A stretch of 64,000 nucleotides of DNA. It comes from Eublepharis macularius. Lineage: Eukaryota; Chordata; Lepidosauria; Squamata; Eublepharidae. This document shows, in pieces, positions 1,611 to 63,700 of this stretch. The stretch is from assembly GCF_028583425.1 (NCBI RefSeq), contig NC_072790.1:10336552-10400551 (forward strand). The letters run 5' to 3'. Made by a program: the position numbers and the translations under genes. The notes under the pieces were generated by a model, which was given only the letters and a program-made list of their open reading frames with translations, was not told the DNA's origin and searched no databases. The first letter of the stretch is position 1; every line of letters begins with the position of its first letter.

Positions 1611-36040
<34,430 letters not shown>

Positions 36041-41500: not shown

Positions 41501-44500
41501 TCAAGACTAAACTGGAAGGGGCCCCAGAGGCAGAGTCACCAAAAGAAAGAGAAACTGAGCAGGCAAAGAAAGGCATTCGAGGGAGATGAGTGGGACCGGC
41601 AGCAGCACGTGGTAAAGGAGGACAGGGAGAAATAGGGGAGAGGGGAGAAAAATTAACAGAGTAACTAGAGGAAGGAAATACTGCACACTCCTGGGTAGAA
41701 AGAAAATGGGACATGTCATGGTATAGAGCGGCATAAATTGGAAAAATATATTTTAGAGGCTATTGATCAGGAAGCCAAAGTAGATTGAATTTTACATTAA
41801 CGGAACAAAATATGACAACTAATAGAGACAAATCTAAATGAATCTTGCTTAGCATACAGCTTTTTCACTTCCATAATAAAACCCTTGTCTAGAAATTATA
41901 TACTTTTCTCATTTAAGTGAGATTGTAATCTAAGAGAATAATCTTTTTTTAAACTCCAAAGCAAGGGACAACATAAGGTCTTCTTGGGAGCCACACAATT
42001 ACCACAGTTCTATTTTCTCATCAGTTCTACATGAATCACATTCTTCTCCTCCACCAATAAAGATACAAAACTGTTGCCACTATAAATGCATTAAGTCTAC
42101 ACACTCATATGCGCTTCCATTTATCTGCACAGATGACTCTCCCAATTCAACATGTACTTTTACTATAATTTTTTCCTCTTTTAGATCACAAGCCATCTTA
42201 AATTTAATTCAATGTATACTGAAATTTACAGCAAGACCCTGAGATTCAGAGCCTGCAGATTAATTTTCTACAGAAACCAAGAACGATCAGCGATCAGCAC
42301 CTGCAGTAGTTTTCTGGGCTGTTCCTTTCTCGTCATTGATAGTTACCACGGTCAGAGTGTTGAAGCCAGCACTCCCCAGCAGGTGTCCCAAGTCATTGAC
42401 GGCAGTAAAAGGAGATACGTGCGGAGAAAATCCTCCTTCTCTTTCCAGTTCTGCCAGCTGCAAAGAGCAGCGAAGCTCATAAAGGGTGTCTCCCCCGAAC
42501 ATGGCGCCAACAAACACTCCATCGGGTTTAAGGACTTGGTGTATCTGGAATACATCAGCGGAAGCGGAAAAGGTCACCCATCAAAGCATCTTCCGTAGGA
42601 ATTCCAGAGGGTTCGCTTCAGTGCAGCAAAACAGAGGACTAGAACCATCCGAGAGACTAGCAATATTTGCTCCAGCATGAGCGTTTGTGAGTCAGAATGT
42701 ACTTTTTCAGATGGAATGGATTTTTCCGTTGCCTGTGAGGAAGTGAGTTCTGACAGTGGAGAGCGCAGGCTGGAGTACATGTTGCTAGTCTTCACGGTGC
42801 CACTGGACTTCTGTTTTGCCTTCTGCAGCAGCGACAGAACCTTCGAACCTGAAGACAACGTGTTCTTGAATGTGATTTCACACAAAGCGGGATAACTTTG
42901 AACCACAGTAATATTCTAAGCTAGTTTTTTGGGCAGGAAAAGGTCTTAAATAATGTCTAATACAACTGGCCTTAAATTTTAAGAATCTCTTTACCACAAG
43001 ATCCGTACTCTGCTCCCTTCCAGAGGAGCTGGATTCTCTGCTGTTTGCTTTTCCCAACCTCCCCATTAGGCAGAAGGAACAATGTTGCCCATGGCCAGCT
43101 AATGAGCAACACTCTTGCCCATGGCCAGCTAATGAGCAACACTCTTGCCCATGGCCAGCTAATGGGCTGGCCATGGGCTAACAAGCATTGCAAATGAGCA
43201 GCCCACACAGGGCTGCCCGCCCCGCACTGACCAAAACTGCAGTTTTTAATTTGACTACCATATTCTGAGGGCTAGGACAAGAAGATGAGATTCAGAGGGA
43301 GCAGAGCACTGATACACCAGCACCTGAGCAGCCGGCATGAGAGCACTAGGATCAAAACAAACAGTAAATAGAACCCCTCAGACAATCTTCGATATGCCCA
43401 AGAGCCTATAATAAAATCAAGTGGTAGTAATCCCTGGAAGAGTTTCCAAGTAGAAAAAGATCAGTAAACCTGCATACAGATTCAATGAGATCACGGCTAG
43501 AAACAAACTCCCGTTTTGCCATAAACACCTGGACACGGGGGGGGGGGAGGGGGGGAGCCATCAGGGTTCCTAACTGGCTGAGCGCAGGATTAAGCAGCAG
43601 GAATCAAAACAGAAAGAAAACACGGCAACAGCATCAAGGCAGCCCACAGATCACGGCCGAGTGGAGGACAGAGTTTATTTTAACCGAAGAGCAGACAGGG
43701 AAGGAGCGAAAAGTGTTATGAAAATGGGGAAAAAAATCTCATTATTACAAGTGCCACAGCAGTGGATGCTCCTAGTAGCCCAATCTGTCACCTGTTTGAC
43801 AGAGGCTCGCTGGATTAAATAGTCTCACTTTGTCCACGTACTCCAAACATGGAGCCAGTAGTGAGACTGTAGCACCGGGACCTGGGAAGTGTCAGCTGGA
43901 ATTTCCACTCTGCCATGGAAGCCTGGGGTCAGTCACAAACTCTCAGCCTAACCTTCCTCAGCAGGTTGTTGTGAGAATAAATGGAGGAGAGGAGAATGAG
44001 AATAAAGTGCTTTGGGTCCCCACTGGGCAGGAAGGGTTAGGGTGCAAATAAGGTACATAAGTCATCAACATAATAATCCACTTTTCTATCTATGGTTCTA
44101 GAGGGAAACCTGAAGAACAGGAGCAGGTGGGGCACATCAGCACCTTCACAGGTGCAGCAAGACTCGCACTCACCTCACGCAATGCTTTGGGAAGGTCATT
44201 CACCCAATGCAAGCTAAAAACAGTGGAAGAAAATGAGTTAAGAGGTGGAACATATATTTCCTCACGTCACCAGATTCTGGCACATAGCTCAGGCTGGCTT
44301 ATCAATAACAAGGCACAAATGTCAAATGGTGCCAAACAAAGAAAGGACCAAGGCAATGGGCTGAGATCCAAACTCAGGTTGACATAAAGCATCACCAAGC
44401 AGTGCAAGTTCGGTGTTCGGCATTTTTATTTGCAGCTGGATGCTTTGACGTACAGATGCTATTGCAGAAATAACATTCGATTTATATACCGCCCTTCAGG

Positions 44501-47500: not shown

Positions 47501-49918
47501 ATCTGCCTTTTCCCACCTTCAGCAGGTCAGGCAACTGGCGTCCTAACTCTTGTCCCAGGATCTGGCTTCTGGGAACCATGCAACGGTCACCTCCAGGCTA
47601 GACTACTGCAACTCGCTCAATGCAGGGCTGCCCTTGGGCTTGTTACAGCTACTCTAGAATGCCGTGGCACACACCTTACTGGGAATCCATTTAGAGCTGT
47701 GCCAGCTGCACTGGTTTCCTGTTGAGTTCCGGATCCTGTTCAAGGTGTTGGTTTTGGTATTCAAAGCCCTTAACGGACTGGGGCCCATATACCTCTAGGA
47801 CTGCTTTTTCCACTATATCCCTTGCAGGGCCTTGCACTCTGTGGCAAGAAGCTACTCAGGGTCCCTGGCTCGAGGGATGTTCGTCTGGCCTCAACCAGGG
47901 CCAAGGCCTTTTCTGCTCTGGCCCTAGCCTTGTGGATCACTCTCTCATTGGAGATCTGGGCCCTGCAAGATTTGTTGCGGTTCTGCAGAGACTAAGAGAC
48001 GAAGAAATTCCACTGGACCATTGGTTGAGAGCTGGCATCCTGTCCATTCTTTTGACCATCACGCCTCGTCCCGTCCCACCCTGAATGCTTTACCACGGCT
48101 GAATTTTTAGCTTTTTATACTCGTCAACAGTGGAAACTGTTGATGATGCCTGAAACTGAGATTGAATTATTGTGATTTGTGACTTGCTTTTAGTTTTCTG
48201 CTTTTAAATCTGCATTTATTGTTGGTGTTGTTAGTGTTAGCTGCCCTGAGCCTGTTCGCGGGAAGGGTGGGATATAAACCGAATGAATTAAATAGACAAA
48301 TTCTTACTTGATTTAATGTTAGAAAAGACATTGATGAAATTTCTAGAAGTTAGCTGTCTCACTTGAAGTTTGTCATCACATCTGTGTAAATCAAATATAA
48401 ACCCAGGAATGGCTGTCACTCATACCTCAACCTTATTAATTCCCAAGGCTGACTTCTTTCAGAAAACTACATGCCTTATTGTAGAAATGGGATGAACTGA
48501 TTACTAAGAGAAATATGAAAGAAGTTGCCCGTCTGAAGCCCTTCTATCTTCTATAAGGTACCAATAGATATGACTTTTGACATTAATTGCAGCACATCAA
48601 CAGAAATACCAAGCTTAAAATAGTAAATTGCTGTGTTTTGTTTGTATCTACGTCATTTATGTATTTAGATATCCCACTCTAGAGACAGCTGGTCTCCAAC
48701 CTTTTGTCTGTTCCACGAGGAACGATTTAAAAAAGTCCAACGCACATTCCTTGATATCCACTTCTTCCTCCAAATGCCTCAACTGAATGGTATGGTTTAC
48801 TGTATCAAAGGCTGCAGACAGATCTGGGAGGAGCAACAAAGAAGCTTGGCCTTTGTCTACGTTCATGCGCAGATGATTAACTAAAGCCACCAATGGTCAA
48901 CTAAAGCCACCTAAAGCCTGGCCTGAACCCAGACTGAGAAAAGTAGAGAGCACAAGAACAGAACCCAATCCAATCCCAAATCCCTCTTCTTCAAAGCACA
49001 AATATCAACATTGTGCTATGTGACTCAGCAGGAATTTACTCACATTTTAAAGCTTTACACTGTAAGTCACTGAAAAAAATTATGGAAGAGGTAAACACGT
49101 TAAATATGCCACTATCTTACCTGGCAATGTCAAATACACGGTCTGCTATCCTCCCACCAACCTGTAACGAAAGTAAAAATTAGCATTTGCTACAGCATTC
49201 AGTGACTAAACTAATATTGCTATTATTTAACTTGGAAACTGCTTTGTTTTTGCCCCCTCCCCAACATGTGCACACGGCCACTTACTGCATAAACAGTTTC
49301 CAACAGAGAGAATCACGGGGTTGGAAGGGACCTCCGGGGTCATCTAGTCCAACCCCCTGCACACTGCAGGGCATTCACCACCACCTCCCCCATATGTACA
49401 CGGGACGCCTGCAGGAAACCGCTGCTGACGCCCGATCGAAGGAAGTAGATGGAGAGAGGCGCGGGCTGCTGTGCAGCCCCGGCTGCGGTGGGAAGGAGCC
49501 GGCAGGGAACTGCAAACGCGGGAGCGCCCCAGACAGGCAACGCGGGGCCGGGGCGGGCTGGAGCGGGAAGCCCCGGGCGAGGCCCTCGGGGGGGAGGCGG
49601 GGGGGAGGGCGGGAGGCTGGTCGCCCCGCAGGGAGCGGCAAAGGGGCGGCCCCGCCGCCGCGGCCCCGCAAGGGAGGCCAGGCCGGATCCCGGCCGGGAT
49701 TGCGGGAGGCCCCGCCGCCGCGCCCCGACCTCCTGCCGCAGGTACTCGCAGCGCTCGGGCTCCGGCTGGGCGGCCGCCCAGTTCTTCTGCTTCCGCTTCA
49801 GCCGCCGGTCGAAGGGCTGCAGGGCGCGGGTGGCGGCGGAGCGAGCGCCCAGGCAAGGCCGCCGCCAGGGCAGGCGCAGGCGCAGACGCCGCCCCGCTCG
49901 CACCAGCGCCGCCGCCAT
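38411..49918 (-). CDS. NDUFAF5: NDUFAF5, mitochondrial complex I assembly factor (11 exons, complete)
   Basis: Eleven exons join in phase to 333 codons and a stop (the human protein is 345 residues). The N terminus ([20 protein letters not shown]) is Arg/Ala-rich without acids, as in a mitochondrial presequence. It is followed by [16 protein letters not shown], then the class I SAM-methyltransferase motif [14 protein letters not shown] (motif I), [52 protein letters not shown] and a C-terminal region with [18 protein letters not shown]5 acts in the mitochondrial matrix and is known to hydroxylate an arginine of NDUFS7 early in complex I assembly. Human motif I is LDLGCGRGY; here the third glycine is Ser. 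The gene diverges from ESF1 at a shared CpG-rich promoter and converges on SEL1L2. Confidence 0.97.
38688..38770 (-). CDS. NDUFAF5: NDUFAF5 exon 10
   Basis: 83 bases reading [20 protein letters not shown] and GWKFHESQ; acceptor TTGTTAG, donor GTAATG. A poly-G tract lies just 3' of it in the intron. Confidence 0.95.
39706..39789 (-). CDS. NDUFAF5: NDUFAF5 exon 9
   Basis: 84 bases in phase 1 to 1: [20 protein letters not shown] and AAAAVYR. Human has [20 protein letters not shown]. Acceptor TTTTAG, donor GTAAGT. Confidence 0.95.
40020..40400 (+). mobile_element. CR1 LINE 3' UTR fragment
   Basis: The stretch ends GGTCTGGACTAGATGACCCT, the plus-orientation CR1 tail, after a body with CAGGAAGAAATGTCCCTCC. 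It lies in NDUFAF5 intron 8. Confidence 0.7.
40765..40825 (-). CDS. NDUFAF5: NDUFAF5 exon 8, GC donor
   Basis: [20 protein letters not shown] plus one base, then the intron begins GCAAGT. The frame and the human match (EDLQGMGESN) fix the boundary, so this is a GC-AG intron with the ideal AAG|GCAAGT context. Confidence 0.94.
42347..42544 (-). CDS. NDUFAF5: NDUFAF5 exon 7
   Basis: 66 codons, phase 0 to 0, with [40 protein letters not shown] and GFNTLTV. It is the largest and best conserved coding exon. Acceptor TTCCAG, donor GTAACT. Confidence 0.97.
43085..43178. repeat. 30-bp tandem repeat ending in a perfect hairpin
   Basis: Two full units starting TTGCCCATGGCCAGCTAATG (43085 and 43115) and a third partial one at 43145. 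The third runs into GCCCATGGCCAGC-TAATGG-GCTGGCCATGGGC, a hairpin with 13-bp perfect arms (43147-43178). In NDUFAF5 intron 6. Confidence 0.9.
43864..44060 (+). mobile_element. Second tRNA-SINE family
   Basis: TTTCCACTCTGCCATGGAAG, GGTTGTTGTGAGAATAAATG, GCTTTGGGTCCCCACTGGGC are marks of this family. In NDUFAF5 intron 6. Confidence 0.65.
44174..44213 (-). CDS. NDUFAF5: NDUFAF5 exon 6
   Basis: Forty bases reading [13 protein letters not shown]; acceptor TTTTAG, donor GTGAGT. Human has [13 protein letters not shown]. Confidence 0.95.
44468..44576 (-). mobile_element. Sauria SINE, tail half
   Basis: AATAACATTCGATTTATATA through CAGAGCGGTTTACAAAG to ATCACCCTGTGA; truncated. In NDUFAF5 intron 5. 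Confidence 0.8.
44753..44856 (-). CDS. NDUFAF5: NDUFAF5 exon 5
   Basis: 104 bases reading [20 protein letters not shown] and FDLVVSSL, nearly identical to human. Acceptor ATTTAG, donor GTAATT. Confidence 0.96.
44959..45006 (-). CDS. NDUFAF5: NDUFAF5 exon 4
   Basis: Sixteen codons, [16 protein letters not shown], matching human ETIGKFFQADIAENAL. The D is the acidic residue of motif II. Acceptor TTTGTAG, donor GTGAGT. Confidence 0.95.
45007..47167. other. NDUFAF5 introns 2-3, nothing beyond exon 3
   Basis: A G-rich segment at 45650-46090 has ORFs on both strands but no recognised domain. The rest is AT-rich unique-looking sequence. Confidence 0.4.
46288..46351 (-). CDS. NDUFAF5: NDUFAF5 exon 3 (SAM motif I)
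   Basis: 64 bases reading [19 protein letters not shown] then NK. It carries the SAM-binding glycine loop; the residue after GCGR is Ser where human has Gly. Confidence 0.96.
47168..48298 (+). mobile_element. CR1/L2-type LINE, RT fragment and 3' end
   Basis: The + strand encodes [18 protein letters not shown], the start of a CR1/L2 reverse transcriptase, then jumps to the C-terminal part ([13 protein letters not shown] in another frame). It ends with GGGAAGGGTGGGATATAAAC, the usual tail. Most of the RT core is missing. It lies in NDUFAF5 intron 2. Confidence 0.8.
48660..48895 (-). mobile_element. LINE reverse transcriptase fragment
   Basis: The minus strand reads [20 protein letters not shown] and [11 protein letters not shown], the RT catalytic-region neighbourhood of CR1/L2 LINEs. 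It is opposite to the fragment at 47168-48298, so it is a separate insertion or an inversion. Confidence 0.8.
49121..49161 (-). CDS. NDUFAF5: NDUFAF5 exon 2
   Basis: 41 bases reading [13 protein letters not shown] plus two bases; acceptor GTTACAG, donor GTAAGA. It matches human VGSRIADRVYDIP. Confidence 0.95.
49309..49380 (-). mobile_element. CR1 LINE 3' end fragment
   Basis: AGAATCACGGGGTTGGAAGG then CATCTAGTCCAACCCCCTGC is a classic CR1 terminus. It lies in NDUFAF5 intron 1 at the edge of the CpG island. Confidence 0.8.
49730..49918 (-). CDS. NDUFAF5: NDUFAF5 exon 1 (start codon, presequence)
   Basis: 63 codons from MAAALV to YLRQE. The start is the first ATG giving the presequence and sits in a good context (GCTATGG, also a YY1-like GCCGCCAT on the + strand). 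An upstream in-frame ATG at 50005 would add 29 residues but falls among the promoter motifs. The donor GTCGGG is unusually weak. Confidence 0.92.
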
Positions 49919-49951
49919 AGCGACCCCGAGGGCGACGCGACGCCGCCCTCT

Positions 49952-50011
49952 CCGGAAGCGGAAAGGCCAGGAGCAGAGACACAGGAAGGGAGCAGAGCGG
50001 ATCACTTCCGG
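49952..50011. promoter_or_regulatory. Two opposed ETS cores (CCGGAAGC and CACTTCCGG)
   Basis: CCGGAAGC at 49952-49959 and CACTTCCGG at 50003-50011 face in opposite directions upstream of the NDUFAF5 start. Paired ETS (GABP-type) sites are common in nuclear genes for mitochondrial proteins. A YY1-like GCCGCCAT (49911-49918) overlaps the NDUFAF5 start codon. Confidence 0.5.
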
Positions 50012-50135
50012 CGGAGGGCCGCGCCGCTCTGCCCCTGGCGTCTCTCTGCTCCCACACGGCGGGAAGGGGGAGCCGCGGAGGCGGCGCAGATCTCCCGGTC
50101 TGTTTGGCCTTCCTGAGCCGCCGTCGTTCGCGACC

Positions 50136-50147
50136 TGACGTCATTGG
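50136..50147. promoter_or_regulatory. CRE (TGACGTCA) overlapping an inverted CCAAT box
   Basis: A perfect palindromic TGACGTCA shares its last base with ATTGG, the reverse of CCAAT. This composite of CREB/ATF and NF-Y sites is typical of TATA-less housekeeping promoters and would suit either gene. Confidence 0.6.
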
Positions 50148-51791: not shown

Positions 51792-54700
51792 GTAAGGAGG
51801 AATTTGCACCATAAAAGCAAAGAGCAGTTTTTGTGCGGAGGACGTTGTTGGCTCTTGGTGGCAGTGGAAAATTGCTGCCTCGTAAGACATTCAGACCCCG
51901 AGATAATTGAATTAGGTTGGCTGAATGTAATTAATCAGTTGTCTGTTGCCCAGGCCCTACCCACTTTTTCTTGGAAGTAAGTTTCATTTATTTCAATGGA
52001 AAGTACTTACAAGTCAGTTTGAGTGTTCGGCAATAATGAACAATCTGTTCTATGTTTTTGTAAGTTTTCTTCATGTGAAATCTGTTGCATTTTCACCTCA
52101 TTCTTCCTCCAGGCAGTTTAGGGTGGCCCACACAGTCCTCCTGGCCTCCACTTTCTGCTCACAACAGCCCTGTGAGGTAGATTAGGCTGAGAGAGGGACT
52201 AACCTAGGATCATCCAGTTGATTTTATTGCAAAGTACGAAATTGAACTTGAGTGTGGCTAATCAGAGCTTTATACTATGAGCACAGCATCATACCATCTC
52301 TGTTTTGTTGGAGACAACCAATTTATTTTATGATTAGCCCAGAGAGCCAGTGTGGTTAGTGGTTAGAGCGTAGGATTACGCTCTAACCACTGGAAGCTTG
52401 CTGGGTGACCTTGGGCCATTCAGTCTCTCTCAAGCTAACCTGCCTCCCAGGGGTCGTGTCAGTTCTAGGGATGGCAGTCCATGGCAGATAGACCCCCAAA
52501 CCCCTCACAGCAAGCACTCCAGCGCATTGGTTGAAAGGTCTTTATTTAGAGATCCATTAAGTTCATGCGTACATCCATAGATGGGAAAGTTGGCAGGAAT
52601 GATTATACAGGCAAAGGCACTATTGATACAGGAAGTACTATTTCCCCTTCCTTTGGAGTAGTTTGCATTTAGGCACGAAAACCTCAGAAGTTGCATGAGA
52701 ACACAATCGCTTAGTCTGGATAGAAACAGCAGAAGATTACAAAGAATTCAAAGTCTTTCTCCCCTGGGAAATGGTTACACTTCTGGTTCCAGCTACAAGG
52801 CCAGTGCCACATATTTTCAGAGATAACAGGTTGTTTACTTTCCCTGTGAAAGCAGCATTAGCACTTTCGTTTTCAGGCAGGCCAAGGATGGCATGACTAT
52901 GTGGCTACATTACAAAGCGCAACTACCTGAACATGGCATGAAATCATACAGTGGATCAATACAGTAGATCAGAAAATACGTCAATGGCATGGGTGTGTGC
53001 ACACATGACAGGTTGTTGTGAGGATGAAATGGAGGAGAAGAAAACGACAGAAGCAGCTTTGGGGCAAAACGTGTGTGGGTGGGGGTGGGGAAGAAATGAA
53101 CTGAATAAATAAATGAATAGCATCTTTTATGGTGTCACAAAAGAATAGTAAGTCCATGTCGCAGTGCTGTGGTTGTGACAGGACAGCCGATGTGCATTTC
53201 CTCAGATCAAGAATGCAGGATGAGAAATGGACAAGGATTTGGGCAAAGGAGCGTGACGGATCCCTGTAGTGCTGAGGGACCTTCCTTTGGAAGGATGCTC
53301 CTGCTTGACTGCACTGAGCTCAGCATGATGATGAAGGAGGAGGAGGAGGAGGCGCTACGGTGGGAAGGGGCGGCTGCCTGAGTTGCTCATTGCGGGCTGC
53401 TGCCCACCCTGCTTTGCTATTGCAGTGCTGGGTCGAGAGTCGCAAACTCCAGTCTCCAGGCACTCTTCAGGAACTATTTTTACGTTACCTGCCTTCCATA
53501 TGATCTCTGCTCTTGGATTCTGGTTGCACTTGAAGTTCCGTGTTTGTGTAATGTTCTTCATTTAGCATTAAACAATTCAGGCCCCTTGAGAGCCCCGTTG
53601 AGAAAATTTTACCTGTTGTCGTCGATGAGTACTGTAGAACACAGTTTAAAGGCATTTCTGTTCTGACAGTTCTTGAAAATGCTGAGACGGGGCTGCCCAT
53701 GTGAATTCAAAGTAGTAACGGATGGAAATGCAGTGGTAGTCAAAGTGATTTTATCCAGTGCTCGGTCAAACAACTTGAATTATTTTTCCTGAATAAATAT
53801 GCTTTCTTCTCCAGCCTCCCCATTATATTTTAAAAATGTGTTGGCTTTTTCCCTACAACTACACCCAGCCAAGGTTGAAGCTTTGTTATGACAGAAGAGG
53901 AAAACAGAAGAGCCACTGCAGTTGGAAGGCTCAATCAGGCTTGAGGGTGGCTTCCAACTTCGTTGAGTGGCGTGGTGGGATCCAGGCCCTGAGGTCATTG
54001 GTTGGTCGGATTCAACCAGCTTTTGCACTGGTAAAAAAAGGAAGAGCCGGTCCCCTTCAGCCACCAAAAATGCTGTCTTGGGAATAAAGGGGACCTGCAT
54101 GAATGAGAGAGTTGGAGGAAGGAGGAGAATTAGATGAGGTGGAGTGAAAATGCTGCCAGGATCCAGCCCCGTTGATTTGTAGGCCTCTCTGTAAGTGATA
54201 AATATTTCTTCTTGCCACTTAGTGAGATCATTACCCACACTTGATTTACCAAGATGCTACGTGCTCGTTATTATCAGCTGCTTTTTGGTTTACTGTCATT
54301 TATATTTATTTGGTTAGAGGGAATATAATAAAGCCTCTGTGCAGCATGATCAGGGAGGCCCCGTATTAGGAAGCTCTATTCTTTTTTACATCCAATACTT
54401 CTGCTATGCTGTTCTTGTTTTGGAGATAATGAGATTTATCATTTTTTTAAAAGGGAAGTTTTTGCTCTGATGTCGCAGTATAAAGGTGTGTTAAATGTAT
54501 CATTGATGATTTTCTTCTTTGTATAGCAAAGGGAGGTGATTTCTCTGCTGGTCGCATCAATAAAAACTACGTAGAAAGTAAAACGTGTAAAAATGAGGAG
54601 AGCTCCGAGCTTGAAGAATTAGCTGCTGTTGAACAAAGTGAAGAGGAAAGTGAGTCAGAAGCTAGTGAAGAGTTGGAAGAGGAAAGCGGTTTGGGAGACG

Positions 54701-57700
54701 ATGGAAAAATATCAGGAGGGAGTGACTCAGAAGACGGAGGAGAAACCGAAGATGAAAGCGAGAACGACGGTGATGAAAATGACAGCGGACCTGATTTGGC
54801 AAGGGGCAAAGGCAACATAGAAACGAGTTCTGAGGAGGAGGAGGATGATGAAGAGGATTTGACTGAGACGCTTCCAAAGGAGCCTGAAGTTGTACATGAC
54901 TGGGGAGAACTGGCTAAAGGGGTTCCTCGTGCAGATAAGGTGAGTGTCAGGTACTGCCATGGCTCAGGTGTTAGGATTCAGCAGTTGCTCAGGTTCACAG
55001 GGTGAAAGTGAGTTTTAGCAATCTGTCCGGTTCTGCCAAAAGCTCTCAAGGATTTCACTGCACGAGCCCAGGAACTGCATGAGTTAAAGCAACTTTGTTG
55101 ATTAGCTGTTAGTTCATTCCCTATTACAGTCCTTGCTAAGACTCACGCCTTTCTAGAAGCATACAATAGGTAGAGGAGTTTCAGCCCAGCCCCTCCCCCG
55201 AGTCAGACAGCTAAGCATAATAAAGGAAGAGCAAAACAAAACAGAGATGTTGTCAGTTCCTGTTCAGTGGATCTTCTCAAAATATCCGCCCCAATCAGAC
55301 CAGGCAGAGACAGATTCAGTAAACGGTTTTATTCAGGAATTCCCGTACAACCAACTAACACAAGGCAATTGCTGAGAATATTTAACTGTAACAATGCAGA
55401 TTATATATTCCTTCCCCTCCCCTTTTCCTATGGAATGGAACTCTTGGCTTTGACAGCCTTTCAACGCTAGAAAACTAAACTGCAACGATGTAACTTCCAT
55501 ACCTTCTATGACCGACAGGTTAACCCCTGTCAAACATTGAACTGCAGCTATGTAACTTCTCTACCTTCTATGCCAGACAAGTTAACCCCTGTCTGACAGA
55601 TGTTACGTGCAGCTTCAAGGCCAGGCAGCCGGTTTCCCACTCTGGGACGGAGATAACAGCACGCGGAGAGATTCCAAGCCGCAGCGGCTGTTAACATCAA
55701 ACTTACACAGAATCAACCTGCTTCTGGCCCTAGAATTACACAGAGGTGCACAGAACCTCGCAAGGTGTGACAGGAGACCTCCTGACAGTGAGACTCTACC
55801 AAGGGTGATACAGCTGGAGTCCAGTGGCACATTCAGAGGCTTACAAAATGCAAGTTTTTGAGAGTCAGAGCTATCTTGATCAGGTGCACTGAGATGTATG
55901 CCTGTTTGGTTGATGCCACCCCATTTATCATATCAGTAGCTCTCAGAAATGCTGCTGGCCCTCGCCGCGTGTGTGTGTTCAGAAGTAAGTCCCGCTGAGT
56001 TCAGCAAGACTTGCCGCAGGTAGTTAGATTGGTATCCATCCAGTGAGCTTTGTGACCAGTAAAGGGAATTTCAACTTCAGCCTCTCAAACCCCAGCCGGA
56101 TAATATGACCTTGACACCATTCTAGCTCTCGGGAATAGCTATTTCTACCAACAAAATAGGCAGGAGCAAAGTTCATGTTTTGATTTACTTATTTTATTCA
56201 ATTTATATTCCACTTGCCCCTGAGCGAGTCCTTAAATCACCCTGGTTCTTTTGGAGCATGCTGTGCGGTGCTTCCCTGTGGTGCTGAGCTTGTAAACTTT
56301 AGCTGCTTTAATTTTGGTTTGCTTTTCGAAGCCCTTGGCCCTGGCTGCTGACTGCTGTCGCTAGCTGGCCTGTGCAAAGCTCGTTGCTGCGAGGAAGACC
56401 ACCTGAACCTCGGGGATAACGAGTGGGCTTTGCTGCTTGGCTTAGAGGGAATGCTGTGCCACTCCCCAACCCCTTTCTCCTTCCCCCCTTTCTGGCAGTG
56501 TTGGCGTACAGAGGGACGTTTTCCTTGTTTCTTGGAGTGCTGCAAATCGCAAACTGTTTGTCTTAGGTTCACATTGTGTCTGTGTTGACCAAGGGGAAAA
56601 ATACCACCTCAGTTATACAGAACTGTTTACGGGGACGGATTCCCGGGAGGGATCCCCATTTTTTGGCCTTTCTGCAGGGCAGGAAGCTTTGCAGCTGTTC
56701 TCAGATCAAATGGTGAATCCCCCAATCTGTTCTTGTTTTGTGCCGAAGTCTAAATTTACAGCTGAAATTCCCCCGGTTATTTACAACGGGTTGATGCATT
56801 TGTTTGCTCCTCAGGCTTAGTTTGGATAACTTAACAAAGTTAGGACCTTAACAGACTGAAGACCTGCTAACAAGATTACTTTTCTCCCATGCAGGTCACA
56901 CACAGGTTGGCGGTTTGCAACATGGACTGGGATCGGCTGAAGGCTAAGGACCTCTTGGCTTTATTTAATTCTTTTACACCGAAGGGGGGGATTATCTTTT
57001 CCGTCAAGGTAAGCACTTCTTTTGAACGGCCAAGTGCAAGCGAGAGTGCTAATTGGACTGGGGAGGTAGTCTGTCCTTGCTTGCTTGCTTGATCGATTGA
57101 TTGATTGAACTCAGTGTGGCAAACGTTCCTCTCCCCTCCTTCTTTGTATCCTTACAACAACCCTGTGAGGAGATTCGGCTGAGAGTGTGTGATTGGCTCC
57201 AGGTCACCCAGTGAGCTCCCACGGTACAGTGGGGATTTGAACCTGGTTCTCCCAGATCTTAGAGCAATGAGCTTAACCATTATGCTGTGCTGGTTCCTAC
57301 TCCCAAATTAGATTTGGCTGTGAGACCAGCAGAGGTTCTGAGGTGAGTGGGGGGGGGGGGCACGTTTGAGGAGAAGTGGGGCAGTTCAGTCTCGGCCAAG
57401 GCTGCTGTAGGGAAACCTGAGGAAATGCACTGCTAGCTGGTGTTGCTGTGGCAAGAGCAACCGTACCTGAAGAGTAAATGAAGCTTGGAGATGCTGACAT
57501 GAGGGTGTGGTAGTCCCAAGCCATGTCTCCACCTCAGAATTAAAGCCGAGGAGGGGCAGGAGTCAGGCAGAGGGGAGGGAGGGGCCCAGCAGAAATGCCT
57601 CTACACGCCAAGAGGGCTCCAGGTGCAGGCCTGACCTTCCAGAAGAGGCCCTTCTGGGGGTGGGGGGTGGGTGGGATAACCAAGCCCTGTTTAGTGAACT

Positions 57701-60700
57701 GGCTTCATCTTAGGGGCAGGCAACCATTTCTGGCATGAGTGCCCCCGCACCACAAATACCTGTCAGTCGATTTTTGGTGTGCCAGTAAACAAAAGGGAGG
57801 AAGGGGGAGACAGAAGTGCTGGACTTGGCCAGATCCACGGGGAGCAGGGCCAGCCCCAGAGGCAGTGCCTATGCTGTTGCCCCGTGGGCTTGCTCCAGGC
57901 CCAGTGCGTGGGTCCAGGAGGCCGTGACGGGAGCACCTGCTGTTGTCCCCCATGCTGTTAAGCCCGGCAGAGCTGCCAGGACCAGTGCCCTGACTGGGGG
58001 CTGCGGGGCCGGGGGTCAGATAGGGCTGAGAGAGACTGTGTTTCTGACGTGTTAAATTTTTTCTGACGCCACGTGTTATAGCTTCAGTTCTTCTAGCGAA
58101 CCAATCCAATTTCACATTGGATGCTTGAAGTCAAGGCCTTAAAATCATGCTCTTAGACATCCTCCCTAAAACCATCTAGCCTGAAGAAGAGTTCTGAAGA
58201 ACTCAAAAGCTTGCACCACTGTTCTTTACCTAGTGTTTGCTGCCTTTTTGAAAAACAAATAATTGTGTGCAAATGCATTTTCAGGCATCTGTTGCTCCGT
58301 TTGTTTGCCCTTCACCACCTCTAACTGAGGGAACGTGAATGTGCCCCCCCCCCCCATCTCTTCTGGATTTGAAGTCTCGGTCAGAAAAGAAGAGGAATGG
58401 TCCTTGGTGATAGAGAGGATGTAGGAGTGCCAGGTCAACAGCATTCCTTGGCCTGGAGACCAGTTGTAGGGTTCCTGTTTAACTTTCACATTATGCAAGT
58501 GACACATTGCCCACAAGACTGGTTAGGTGGGTGGTGAGCATAAATCTTGTTTCTGTGTTACGGAACTCTGTGATGCTTCATGGAAAGTCCCAGCCCTGGA
58601 GGAGTTGGCATCCCTGCTCTGTGGAGGCACAGGGGAGCCGTGGAAGTAGGGAAGCAGCAGAAAGATGGACGGGATGGCTTCCCTGCTCCTAAGAGAGAGT
58701 GCCATTTGCTGCCCTCCATTTTCAGGCATGTCTGTTGCAGGGGTGCATTCGGTCTGCCCTAAAGGCCCCGGTTAAAAGAAGAAGCGTTGAGTCCATTTCA
58801 GTGCTGATTTTTCTGTGATTTGTTTACAGTGCTGTGTAGGTAGCAGGTACTGTCATGCAGGCGTGGTGGTTCGAGTGATGGGTGTGAGAGAGAAGATCTA
58901 AGCCTTGGTCAGCTCTCAAGTCTTTTTAATGATACAATCAGTTTGAACTTCGTTCTGCTGTTTCTAGATTTATCCTTCCGAGTTTGGAAAAGAGAGAATG
59001 AAAGAAGAAGAGGTGAAGGGGCCAACAGAACTACTGAGCCTTCCTGAAGACGTTACAGAAAAAGATGGGTATGAAACATGATTTCAGTTTCTACTCTCCC
59101 TCTAAGCCTGCAGTCCTTTGCACGCTTGGGAGTAAGCTGTGCTTAACTCATTAGGGATTATTTCTGAGTAAACATGCACAAGAGTAGGCTGTCAATCTGT
59201 GAGGCTCAAGGCTGTGAGGTTTTAAACAAAAAAAACCCTCTCTCCCCTCAGGTATGCCCCAGAGCATTAGGCTAAAAAGAGCAGCTAAGGTATTTGTAGC
59301 CCTTGTGAAGACGGACCACGATGGATTCAGCCGTATGGGCAAACAAGGCAAAGATGGAAAAAAAGTGATGTTGAGTCTAGATATTAGGCATGCTCTGTTG
59401 TGTCTCCAAGGCTATGTAGGCAGACTGGCTTCACCAGAAAGAAATGTTTGGTAGACCAGAGCTAGTCTTTGGGCCATTAATTCCCTAATGTCAGTGGGAA
59501 TAAAAACAGCTTCGGCATAGCTTCGGAGTATTCAGCCTGCTTTATCTCAGATAGTTTTCACAACAGCTTTGTTATCATCATCATCATCATAGCATTCGAT
59601 TTATATACCGCCCTTCAGGACAACTTAATGCCCGCTCAGAGCAGTCTACAAAATATGTTTTTATTATCCCCACAACAATCGCCCTGTGAGGTGGGTGGGG
59701 CTGAGAGAGCTCTGGAAGAGCTGTGACTAGCCCAAAGCCACCCAGCAGGCTTCCAGTGGAGGAGTGAGGAATCAAACCCGGCTCTCCAGATTAGAGTCCT
59801 GCGCTCTTAACCACTACACCAAACTTTCTCTCAGTAGGCCAGTTTGATCCCTGTGTTACAGAAAGGGAGAAGGGAGGCTGAATCTCGCTGAGAGCCATTT
59901 TCCTAGGGCGGTGATCTCCAGGCGGTGTGCATGGGTGCCATGGTGCCTGTTGATGTGTTCTCTAGCACACTCTTGCTTTTTACCCAAACCAAAGAGCCAT
60001 TGCTGACTTCTTGCTTCGTGAGAGCCCAGAAGGCATCTGCTTTGTGTCTGCAGGGAGCCCCAGTCTAGAAACAGCAACCTCCCTCAGGGGAGAACACTTG
60101 GTTTGGATTGGCCCCAGCCCCCATGGCAGCCATTTTGTTTTCAGAACTCCAGAAGTGGCTGGAAGGTCAGCAGTATTGGAGACCCCTGACCCAGGGTTGC
60201 TCGGCAAATTCATGACTGAAGCAGAATTTGAAGTAGGGATTTCCTAGCTCACCGGTCCGTCTTCTAGCCCCCTTTTGGAAATCCATGAATCTTCTTCATC
60301 TTCATTAGATTCGCTGTTGAATCCATCTGTTCAGCCACGTCCTCAACTCGTGTTGCTTGAAGAGGGCTGCTTCCCTCACTGTATTTAAATGTAAACCTAA
60401 TCTTTATACCTTAACAACTGTGCCGTGAGAATGTGACTGATACAGTCACCAAACAGGTACATGTGCACCTGCCCCCGTCCACTTTCCCCCCTTCAAGAGC
60501 CGGGATTAATTGCAGCCTCTTGCGAAAGAGGCACGTTGATAGCAATGACAAGGGTATTGTGCAGTGGGCGTTCACCATTAGATGGCGCTTTCCTCCAGCA
60601 TTGGATGACCAACGCTGATCTGCTAGTGCGGAAAAGCCTGAGCTGTTCCACCTTGAGCACTGGAAAAGGGACACATTCTGCTAGTACTTTGCTTGACATC

Positions 60701-63700
60701 TCCTACATATTAGGTGATCTGGTGAACAGGATGGTCCTGGCCCAGAAGGGAAACCTTAAGGGATCCTTCTCAGTGCTGCTACTTCTGTGCACGGGCTGCC
60801 GGCAAAGCAGCACTTTAAGGGGAATTGTAGAAGAAATCATCACTGCTGCTTATTGAAGAATTTCAGCCACATTCTTGGCTGATTGATAAAATCAGGGGAC
60901 ACGTCCACTTGCACACGGCAGTTGTGCATTAGATCTGGACCATCATCAACAACAACATAACAACAACAACAGCAACATTCAATTTATATACTGCCCACTC
61001 AATAGTTTACAAAGTATGTCATTGTTATCCCCACAACAACCACCCTGCGAGGTGTGTGGGGCTGAGAGAGCTCTGAGAAGCTGTGCCTGACCCAAGGTCA
61101 CCCAGCTGGCCTCAAGCAGAGGAGTGGGGGAATTGGACCCGGCTCTCCAGATTAGAGTCCTGCTTCTCTTAACTCCAAACTGGTGCGAGCCTCCCCTTTC
61201 CAGGAGGGCCAAGATCCCAAAGGCTGGATCCTGACATCTGGGGGCAGAGTCCCATTTGCGGTACGGGGCTTGCCTGCTTCTTTTGCTGCTGCAGCAGCCT
61301 GCATGCCCTGGAAAGCAGCTTTGAAGCATCGAGAAACTTCTGGAATAGCTTTTGATGGGGGGGGGGGGCCGTGGCAGCACTGCAACCTAAAGGGTGTGTA
61401 TGGAAGTTGGGGAACCCTTGAGCAAATGCACGTAGCCAGTACAAGCAGAAAGCACCTTTGGGGCCAACCCACAGAATTATGCCAAACTTCGCACATCTTT
61501 TTATCTAGTAGATATTCCTGATGCCACACGAAACGTTGCTTTTGAAGGTCAAGGGGGCTGCTGTTCAGGGGGGCGGGGGCGGAATTCGAAATCATAAAAA
61601 TACAAGTACACAAAAGCACTAAAGTGGATCTCAGCATCCTGTTCCCTGAGCCCTGCCTGGGAGGTCCCACTTGCTTGATAATAATGCTTGTGCAGTTATA
61701 CTGCTGGCCTCTGTCCCTACAGGTCCAGGCTCAGTCCTGGCATGAGAAAATAACAACAATAACAACATTCAATTTATATACGGCCCTTCAGGATGACTTA
61801 ACACCCACTCAGAGCGGTTTACAAAGTTTCCATTATTATCCCCACAACAACAATCCCCCTGTGAGGTGGGTGGGGCTGAGAGAGCTATGGAAGAGCTGTA
61901 ACTAGCCCAAGGTCACCCAGCTGGCTTGGGGAATCAAACCTGGCTCTCCAGATTAGAGTCCTGCCGCTCTTAACCACGACACCAAACTGGCTCTCAAATA
62001 CCTTTGAAACACTTTCTCAGCTCCTGCAGTATCATGCTTGGGGGACAGGGAGTTGGCAGTGAGCCTCGAAGCATCTCATAAATCTTGTCTTTAGTCATAA
62101 GCATTGTTAGCGTATCTGACAGTGAAATCCTAAACAGAGTTACTCCAGTCTAAGCCCATTGATTTCAGTGGACTTAGGCTGAAGTAACTGTGCTTAGGAT
62201 TTCACTGTGAACCTGGTAAAGAGCCTCATACTTATACTTTGACACACACTCTTAAGCTCTCCTGCCCAGTGTGTTCATAATTAAAAAATGAGATTGCAAT
62301 GCGTAACATTGACTTAACTCTCTTCATTTTTGCAGCATTTTTAAGGAGAAACAGAGAGATTATCAGTTCAAGCGGCTGAAATATTTCTATGCTGTAGTAG
62401 AATGTGACTCTCCAGACACTGCCAATAAAATTTATGAAGAATGCGATGGGCTGGAGTTCGAAAGCAGTTGTTCGTTTGTGGACCTGAGGTATAATGAATG
62501 GATGGCCTGTGTAATGTTTTTAAAAGCCTAGTTAAAAAGGGTTAAATTTAAGCATCTTCTCAAGCTGATGCTAAAGTAAGTGACTGAAGTCTCCCGCTAA
62601 ACGGGGGTCTTCAGGTGTCTTCAGAGAACTCAGATGTGTGCAAGAGAATTCCATGCTTATAAAACAGCACTGAGATGCAAAGGGTGGGCAGCGTGCTTCG
62701 CTCTGCATTTCGGCCTAAGGCTCGTTGGTTATTTGATTGGAGGTAGGGGTGTTAAGATACGTTCACGTTTAGCAGACTCGAGGCATGAAGTTGCCGTAAC
62801 TTCTGTGGTGGAAAGTTGCATGACGATACTCTCCCGTGATACAAGGGGCATAACCTCAGGATCTTTCCTGTATCCTCTTAGTACTATTTTAATGCCAACA
62901 TTAAAAGTTACAGATATTTCATTACAGGTCAGTTTAATTGGCGGTGTTCAGTTATAGAAAGGTCAGAAACCGTATCTGACCATGGGGCCTAAGTAAAGTA
63001 GGTATGGTGATGGCTGCTAGCACAGATGGTATCGAAAGGGGGTTAGACACATTCATGGAAGAGAGGTCCGCCAGTGGCTACACACCATGGTGAGCAAAGG
63101 GAACCTCCGTGTCCAGAGGCAGTCAACCTCTGAAACTCAGTGCTAGGAGGCAACGGGGGTGGGGGGGGTGGGAGGGGAAGCCTGGCCTTCACGCGCTGCT
63201 GGCTGGCCTTCCGGGGCAACCGGTAGCCACTGTGTGGAACTGGATGCTGGACTGGATGGACCACTGCTCTGATCCCACAGGGCTCTTCTTACGTTCCAGA
63301 GGGCCCTCCCAGTTCCCTGCGAATGACGAACAACGATTGCGGGTCTAGATCCAGTGCGGACAGTTGATCCCAGGTTGGGTCCAGAGCGCCATCAGCTCAG
63401 TGAAGGTGGTGGGAAGGAAGAGCGGAATGAACTTCCGCGGCCTCCCACAGCAGTGGCTCTGGGCTGAGGGCGTTCACAGCCTTCTTGCTTGAGATCCTTA
63501 AACAGAAGATGCCAGGAATTGAACTTTCAGCCTTTTAGGTTGATATCAAGCCCCCCTCCTTCGAGGCCTTATCACGTGTTCCGGGTGGTGAGGATTATTC
63601 TCTGTTAGTCTCCAGCATCTTTGATTCAGCAGCAATAATAGAAACTCAGTCGTTTTCCGTGGAGCTGCTCTGGAGCCGGCCAGACATTCCCGGTGCAGAG

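Follow-up and report, generated by a model that had tools for sequence, protein, structure and literature searches.

Two nested antisense Ty3/Gypsy elements directly on the splice donor of ESF1 exon 3 in Eublepharis macularius

The ESF1 locus and the insert beside exon 3

The window analyzed here, a stretch of 64,000 nucleotides from Eublepharis macularius (C1:10336552-10400551 of a 2.24-Gb assembly in 72 contigs, which was also the genome searched for related copies), contains two genes arranged head to head: a first exon on the minus strand at 49340-50140, which we take to be NDUFAF5-like, and ESF1 on the plus strand from 51321 onward. Pfam returned no match on the NDUFAF5-like stretch, and an NCBIfam search in one unchecked frame returned none either. 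The plus-strand gene was assigned to ESF1 because its translated exons 2, 3, and 4, joined by eye, match the Pfam family RRM_ESF1 (E 2.7e-12), with the RRM_ESF1 match following in exon 4. Exon 3 occupies 54527-54939, its start placed by eye at an acceptor candidate at 54527 and its frame open throughout; exon 4, preceded by a pyrimidine-rich acceptor, starts at 56895. These boundaries, likewise drawn by eye, presumably agree with those of human ESF1. Searches of other kinds were negative: no relatives of ESF1 and no exact patterns were found in a viral contig collection (a 15-base pattern recurred there in 8 stretches, taken as chance), a phage search gave nothing, Rfam gave no match at the gathering threshold, and no solved structures were found for the ESF1 junction.

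Several other repeats lie in the window. A 198-bp near-perfect palindrome (11102-11299, 96% identical to its own reverse complement) is probably a hairpin-type transposon, and weaker palindromes occur at 4534-4765, 13260-13398, 15117-15260, and 34139-34312. A roughly 240-bp dispersed repeat, probably a SINE, is present in at least 7 places and in both orientations, with 71-89% identity among the best 40 pairs (4867-5110, 15963-16219, 21240-21456, 33552-33764, 59593-59833, 60989-61173, and 61750-61996). Two 74-bp stretches 15 kb apart (5705-5778 and 20846-20919) are 95% identical, each near short tandem repeats with GGGCCC. There are also a perfect TCTT microsatellite of 34 copies (14804-14939) and, at 43078-43164, a minisatellite with a 30-bp unit in 2.9 copies (96% matches).

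Exon 3 ends in GATAAG, its last base being 54939, and is followed by GTGAG (54940-54944), which makes up donor positions +1 to +5 and is at the same time the left target-site duplication of an 843-bp insert (54945-55787, minus strand) that starts with TGTCAGG and ends with CCTGACA. The right-hand GTGAG (55788-55792) is directly followed by ACTCTACC and forms a weak donor-like site, ACA/GTGAGA (the slash marks the would-be junction); the rest of intron 3 runs from 55793 to the acceptor at 56894. The coordinates of AAG, both copies of GTGAG, and the 843-bp insert had been given in the initial annotation and were confirmed in the sequence. The insert termini form a perfect 7-bp inverted repeat flanked by the perfect 5-bp repeat. 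Across the whole window, structures of this kind (TG/CA-ended 7-bp terminal inverted repeats with a perfect 5-bp flanking repeat, 200-2000 bp long) were found once, versus an average of 0.975 over 40 dinucleotide shuffles, and 1988 were counted in a larger set of 2174 shuffles; taken alone, the terminal and flanking repeats are not significant above chance. The insert is nevertheless a real element, because copies of both its inner and its outer part exist elsewhere in the genome, which rules out mere chance repeats as an account of it.

Two Ty3/Gypsy families, one inside the other

The initial annotation had described the insert as one 843-bp solo LTR. A genome search with all 843 bp returned 659 candidates, and among the 40 scored, the 39 besides the window all lay within query positions 296-662. 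A single LTR of one family would fit the ends and the outer duplication, yet none of those 39 matches reaches beyond this inner part, which has a GATGT duplication of its own (55246-55250 and 55599-55603), and the flanks come from a different family, copies of which continue across the inner site; we regard that account as almost certainly wrong. As judged from its genomic copies, the insert is instead two nested Ty3/Gypsy elements, both antisense to ESF1: a 490-bp outer remnant holding a 348-bp solo LTR of a different family.

The inner element (55251-55598, 348 bp, minus strand) is a complete LTR with TGTCAG...CTGACA ends, a 5-bp duplication, and no internal sequence, as expected of a solo LTR, and the boundaries seen in other copies (29 of the 39 non-self scored matches were fetched) agree with these coordinates. 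Perfect 5-bp duplications flank 7 of the 29 other places, all of them different (tgctg, cctat, tcgag, ggtac, cttag, caggg, and gatat), and two more places match at four of five bases. In about 15 (by eye) of the remaining 20, a primer site or a purine tract adjoins one side, as in LTRs of longer copies. One copy, on C8, has two LTRs between GTATC repeats. The LTRs of the C8 pair differ at 16 of 351 sites and those of a pair on C16 at 15 of 341; L017 and L018, both on C1, show 31 differences over 343 sites and fail to group together in the tree, and they were therefore not counted as one provirus.

Read in the sense direction, the internal region of the inner family starts with TTTTGCTGAGAATCATC and ends with the purine tract AATAAGGGGGGCAGAA, so that the minus strand of the window is the sense strand of the element. 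One C1 copy has an Integrase_H2C2 match about 1 kb from its LTR (Pfam, E 1.7e-10) and a Chromo match within 0.2 kb of the same LTR (E 6.3e-10); the integrase core stretch between zinc domain and chromodomain gave no Pfam match. With a Gypsy integrase and a chromodomain, the family is placed among the Ty3/Gypsy chromoviruses, Tf1/Sushi-like. Its primer stretch is complementary to 11 nt of the LTR (55369-55379, minus strand) that start 28 nt after the start of the TATA box, a complement reached by 3 of 2000 shuffles of the inner LTR. The primer site is thereby complementary to the inferred 5' end of the transcript, pointing to putative self-priming. TATATAA (55401-55407, minus strand), AATAAA (55328-55333, minus strand), and a 62-bp tandem duplication, when taken as the anatomy of an 843-bp element, were assigned the wrong scope: all are located in the inner LTR. 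A comparable TATA-AATAAA pair was present in 253 of 3901 random pieces of the window.

The outer element, which measures 490 bp without the inner LTR, comes from a second Ty3/Gypsy family, one that is apparently older than the inner family. With the left 306 bp as query, 442 further candidates were found; among the 40 scored, the 39 besides the window were 73-84% identical, and 29 of these non-self matches were fetched. Copies share a sharp right boundary, and most of those extending that far have TGTCAGGATGTCTCCT there in sense. On the left, 11 of the 29 copies stop at query positions 75-86, corresponding to about 55024 in the window rather than to 54945, and 17 continue into a leader by way of GATTGC or a similar sequence, most of them as far as a presumed gag start (for example, GCCATGGCAGCAGGGGG); the left boundary of the one other copy (L073) is unclear. 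Because copies either stop there or run on into the leader, the LTR of this family is taken to be 411 bp long. Its 5' part in sense (TGTCAGGAGGTCTCC...) lies at 55604-55787 and its 3' part at 55024-55250, both on the minus strand. Of seven solo copies with both ends visible, L055 has a duplication at all five bases and L056, L068, L074, and L076 at four of five; L054 (two of five) and L075 (one of five) fail. On C13, a copy that carries LTR sequence at each end is bordered by CTGAG on both sides.

Copies of the outer family encode Gypsy-type reverse transcriptase (Pfam RVT_1, E 3.1e-23) and RNase H (RT_RNaseH_2, E 1.7e-14) domains, and we rate the family as Ty3/Gypsy; a candidate integrase match (rve, 21.5 bits) is below the cut-off of 32.6. 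A 9- to 12-nt complement to the primer site is found just after a TATA-like box in five of eight other copies (L049, L051, L065, L067, and L077) and is absent from the expected place in three (L052, L064, and L070). The outer copy in the window has a 7-nt complement at the expected place, a length reached by 155 of 500 shuffles. Among these five copies, primer site and LTR complement change together and exist in two versions, CAGTCCTAGCAA and ATTCCTGGCAA, which separate L049 and L051 from L065, L067, and L077; such covariation between subfamilies would favor self-priming.

Outer-family copies read through the site of the inner LTR, indicating that the latter inserted into a copy of a different repeat that was already present. 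With the inner LTR removed from the query, 24 of the 29 copies gave a single alignment spanning the insertion point, and near copies have no insert there (L049, for example, reads ACAAAACAGAGATGTTATGTGCAG). L056 has a deletion at the point, and more distant copies have small gaps. On trees with 22 other outer copies (7 of the 29 fetched were left out for short cover) and 29 other inner copies, the terminal branch of the window copy, an upper bound in each case, was 0.105 for the outer and 0.043 for the inner element; the order of outer before inner agrees with both the nesting and the longer outer branch. Taken together, the anatomy, nesting, family membership, and orientation of both elements are established from sequence.

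The shape of the outer copy

The outer element differs from a solo LTR in that 70 bp of leader and the tail of a second LTR remain at its exon-proximal end. In sense, the window copy consists of the 411-bp LTR, the 70-bp leader to GCCATGGCAG, TACCTGACA, and the duplication. The 79 bp nearest the exon are thus leader (54954-55023, minus strand, from the primer site to the presumed gag start with its sense ATG at 54960-54958; 17 of the 29 copies continue through it) plus the tail of a 3' LTR (54945-54959, minus strand), joined through six bases, TGGCAG (54954-54959), that are common to the LTR tail and the gag start. An ordinary LTR of this family, that of L050, ends in TGGCAGAACCTGACA, which shares 14 of 15 bases with the window end, TGGCAGTACCTGACA. 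The fusion junction, TGTCAGG-NN-CTGCCATGG (also written TGTCAGG-NN-CTGCCATGGCTCAG), is known from the window copy alone.

We infer from this arrangement that the outer element is not a solo LTR but a 490-bp, internally deleted remnant of a Ty3/Gypsy provirus, for which the simplest account would be a deletion between two copies of TGGCAG. A different view is that it is the solo LTR of a variant subfamily, in which the LTR truly extends to TACCTGACA at 54945 and has taken in the leader. The perfect 7-bp inverted ends and the perfect duplication would be in keeping with such an LTR, and the search for the fusion junction covered the window and the 29 fetched copies. Yet TGTCAGG stands at the position of the window's left end in none of the 29 fetched copies, 14 of the 15 tail bases are those of an ordinary LTR end in this family, and L056, a solo copy that is the closest relative on the tree, stops at the 411-bp position and has a four-of-five duplication. 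A variant subfamily is accordingly rated improbable, and the internally deleted provirus is the reading we carry forward.

The exon 3 donor in light of known systems

An LTR-type insertion with its GTGAG duplication directly on the ESF1 exon 3 donor, as the initial annotation proposed, is borne out: the donor AAG/GTGAGT (54937-54945, plus strand) is made of host GTGAG plus the first base of the element, which serves as +6. If the right flank has stayed unmutated, the donor before insertion would have been AAG/GTGAGA, and the expected empty site would be AAG/GTGAGACTC without insert. The suggestion that this older donor was weaker agrees with prediction: the U1 duplex energy goes from -9.6 kcal/mol for AAG/GTGAGA to -12.6 kcal/mol for AAG/GTGAGT (these and all U1 values below are approximate and were computed as simple RNA duplex energies, taking the best register), and the rank among the 3230 plus-strand GT sites of the window moves from 8 to 2. 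The matrices behind this and the other splice-site ranks also give approximate scores; two intronic AG sites, 56678 and 56499, outscore the true acceptor. Any functional gain for the donor is a prediction only.

Simulated insertions at successive offsets gave U1 energies of -4.1 to -6.9 at offsets 0-4, -12.6 at offset 5, and -9.6 at offsets 6-15. In this model, no tested intronic offset below 5 would spare the donor, and none but 5 would improve it, in line with the earlier proposal that the insertion is as close to the exon as it could be without harm to splicing. The same annotation had seen a second donor-like site in the right-hand duplication. The letters ACA/GTGAGA are indeed there, but with U1 pairing of -4.6 kcal/mol and rank 277 of 3230 under the approximate matrix, the site is predicted to be a poor and nominal donor only.

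The insert need not be neutral, since the inner LTR carries a fair cryptic acceptor at 55577 (rank 57 of 4712 AG sites, approximate matrix) and a weak cryptic donor lies in the insert at 55008 (same approximate matrix). Read-through beyond exon 3 would run into a stop at 55003-55005, so leakage would probably give a truncated product. That the insertion harms ESF1 splicing, for example through retention to the right-hand donor or an exon made from LTR sequence, could draw on these sites (acceptor 55577, donors 55008 and 55788); against this, the normal donor stands second and the right-hand one 277th of the GT sites under the rough matrix, with U1 pairing of -12.6 versus -4.6, and we think such harm unlikely. 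Splicing is most likely maintained at 54939/54940, where the predicted strength of the donor is somewhat higher than before, and the full 843 bp would be removed with the intron.

A history consistent with these features would begin with a Ty3/Gypsy retrotransposon that integrated antisense to ESF1, its 5-bp staggered cut falling exactly over donor positions +1 to +5 (GTGAG). Target duplication would have kept a donor on the exon side, with the terminal T of the element in place of host A at +6. Deletion between the two TGGCAG hexamers could then have removed the inside of the provirus together with almost the whole 3' LTR, so that one LTR, the leader, and a short piece of LTR tail remained. 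Later, a chromodomain Gypsy element would have entered the remaining outer LTR and shrunk to a solo LTR. We consider this history as a whole, from the antisense Gypsy on the donor through the TGGCAG deletion and the nested second Gypsy to retained splicing, to be highly probable; within it, what we infer is the deletion, the route by which it arose, and its timing relative to the second insertion, as well as the donor sequence before insertion, the use of the present donor, and neutrality. More tentatively, a retrotransposon's terminal base may long have served as +6, and its target duplication as +1 to +5, of an upgraded donor, and the element end TGTCAG might since have been held by selection as part of the splice signal, a possibility to which we give a minority of our belief. 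Apart from its unusual tightness to the exon, the insert is ordinary mobile DNA in an intron.

The locus shows clearly, in a natural case, how near to a coding exon an LTR element can come while leaving the donor intact, and GTGAGA versus GTGAGT at one exon, in species without and with the insertion, is a ready comparison for splicing research. It also illustrates that LTR boundaries drawn from a single copy can mislead: an "843-bp solo LTR" became two nested elements and a probable local deletion. A narrow literature search found no report of the ESF1 insert or of a donor with an LTR-end +6 base.

Self-priming is described in PMC4600332 and implicated there from fungi to vertebrates; the paper cites Butler et al. 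2001 for the vertebrate Tf1/Sushi group. The present families resemble that group in (i) Gypsy-type pol domains, (ii) 5-bp duplications, and (iii) a primer site that pairs with LTR sequence shortly downstream of the TATA box, seen in the inner family and in five of the eight other outer copies tested, as well as in the chromodomain of the inner family; the window itself has only LTR and leader remnants. LTR elements in human and mouse are scarce near exons and favored in antisense, according to Zhang, Romanish and Mager 2011 (PMC3088655), and those less than 20 bp away lie at donors rather than acceptors: of six full-length mouse elements at that distance, only one was near an acceptor. The ESF1 insert, antisense and at a donor from +6, fits this pattern; in contrast to the human and mouse cases that the paper covers, the target duplication here is itself the donor, and the element supplies +6. 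Introners likewise carry a functional 5' splice site in the target-site duplication (PMC9860276). Unlike introners, which make a new intron inside an exon, the ESF1 insert created none: exon sequence is absent after the right duplication, where another 1.1 kb of intron leads to the acceptor of exon 4, an exon that starts at 56895. With its anatomy corrected, the ESF1 insert is a further example of a known phenomenon.
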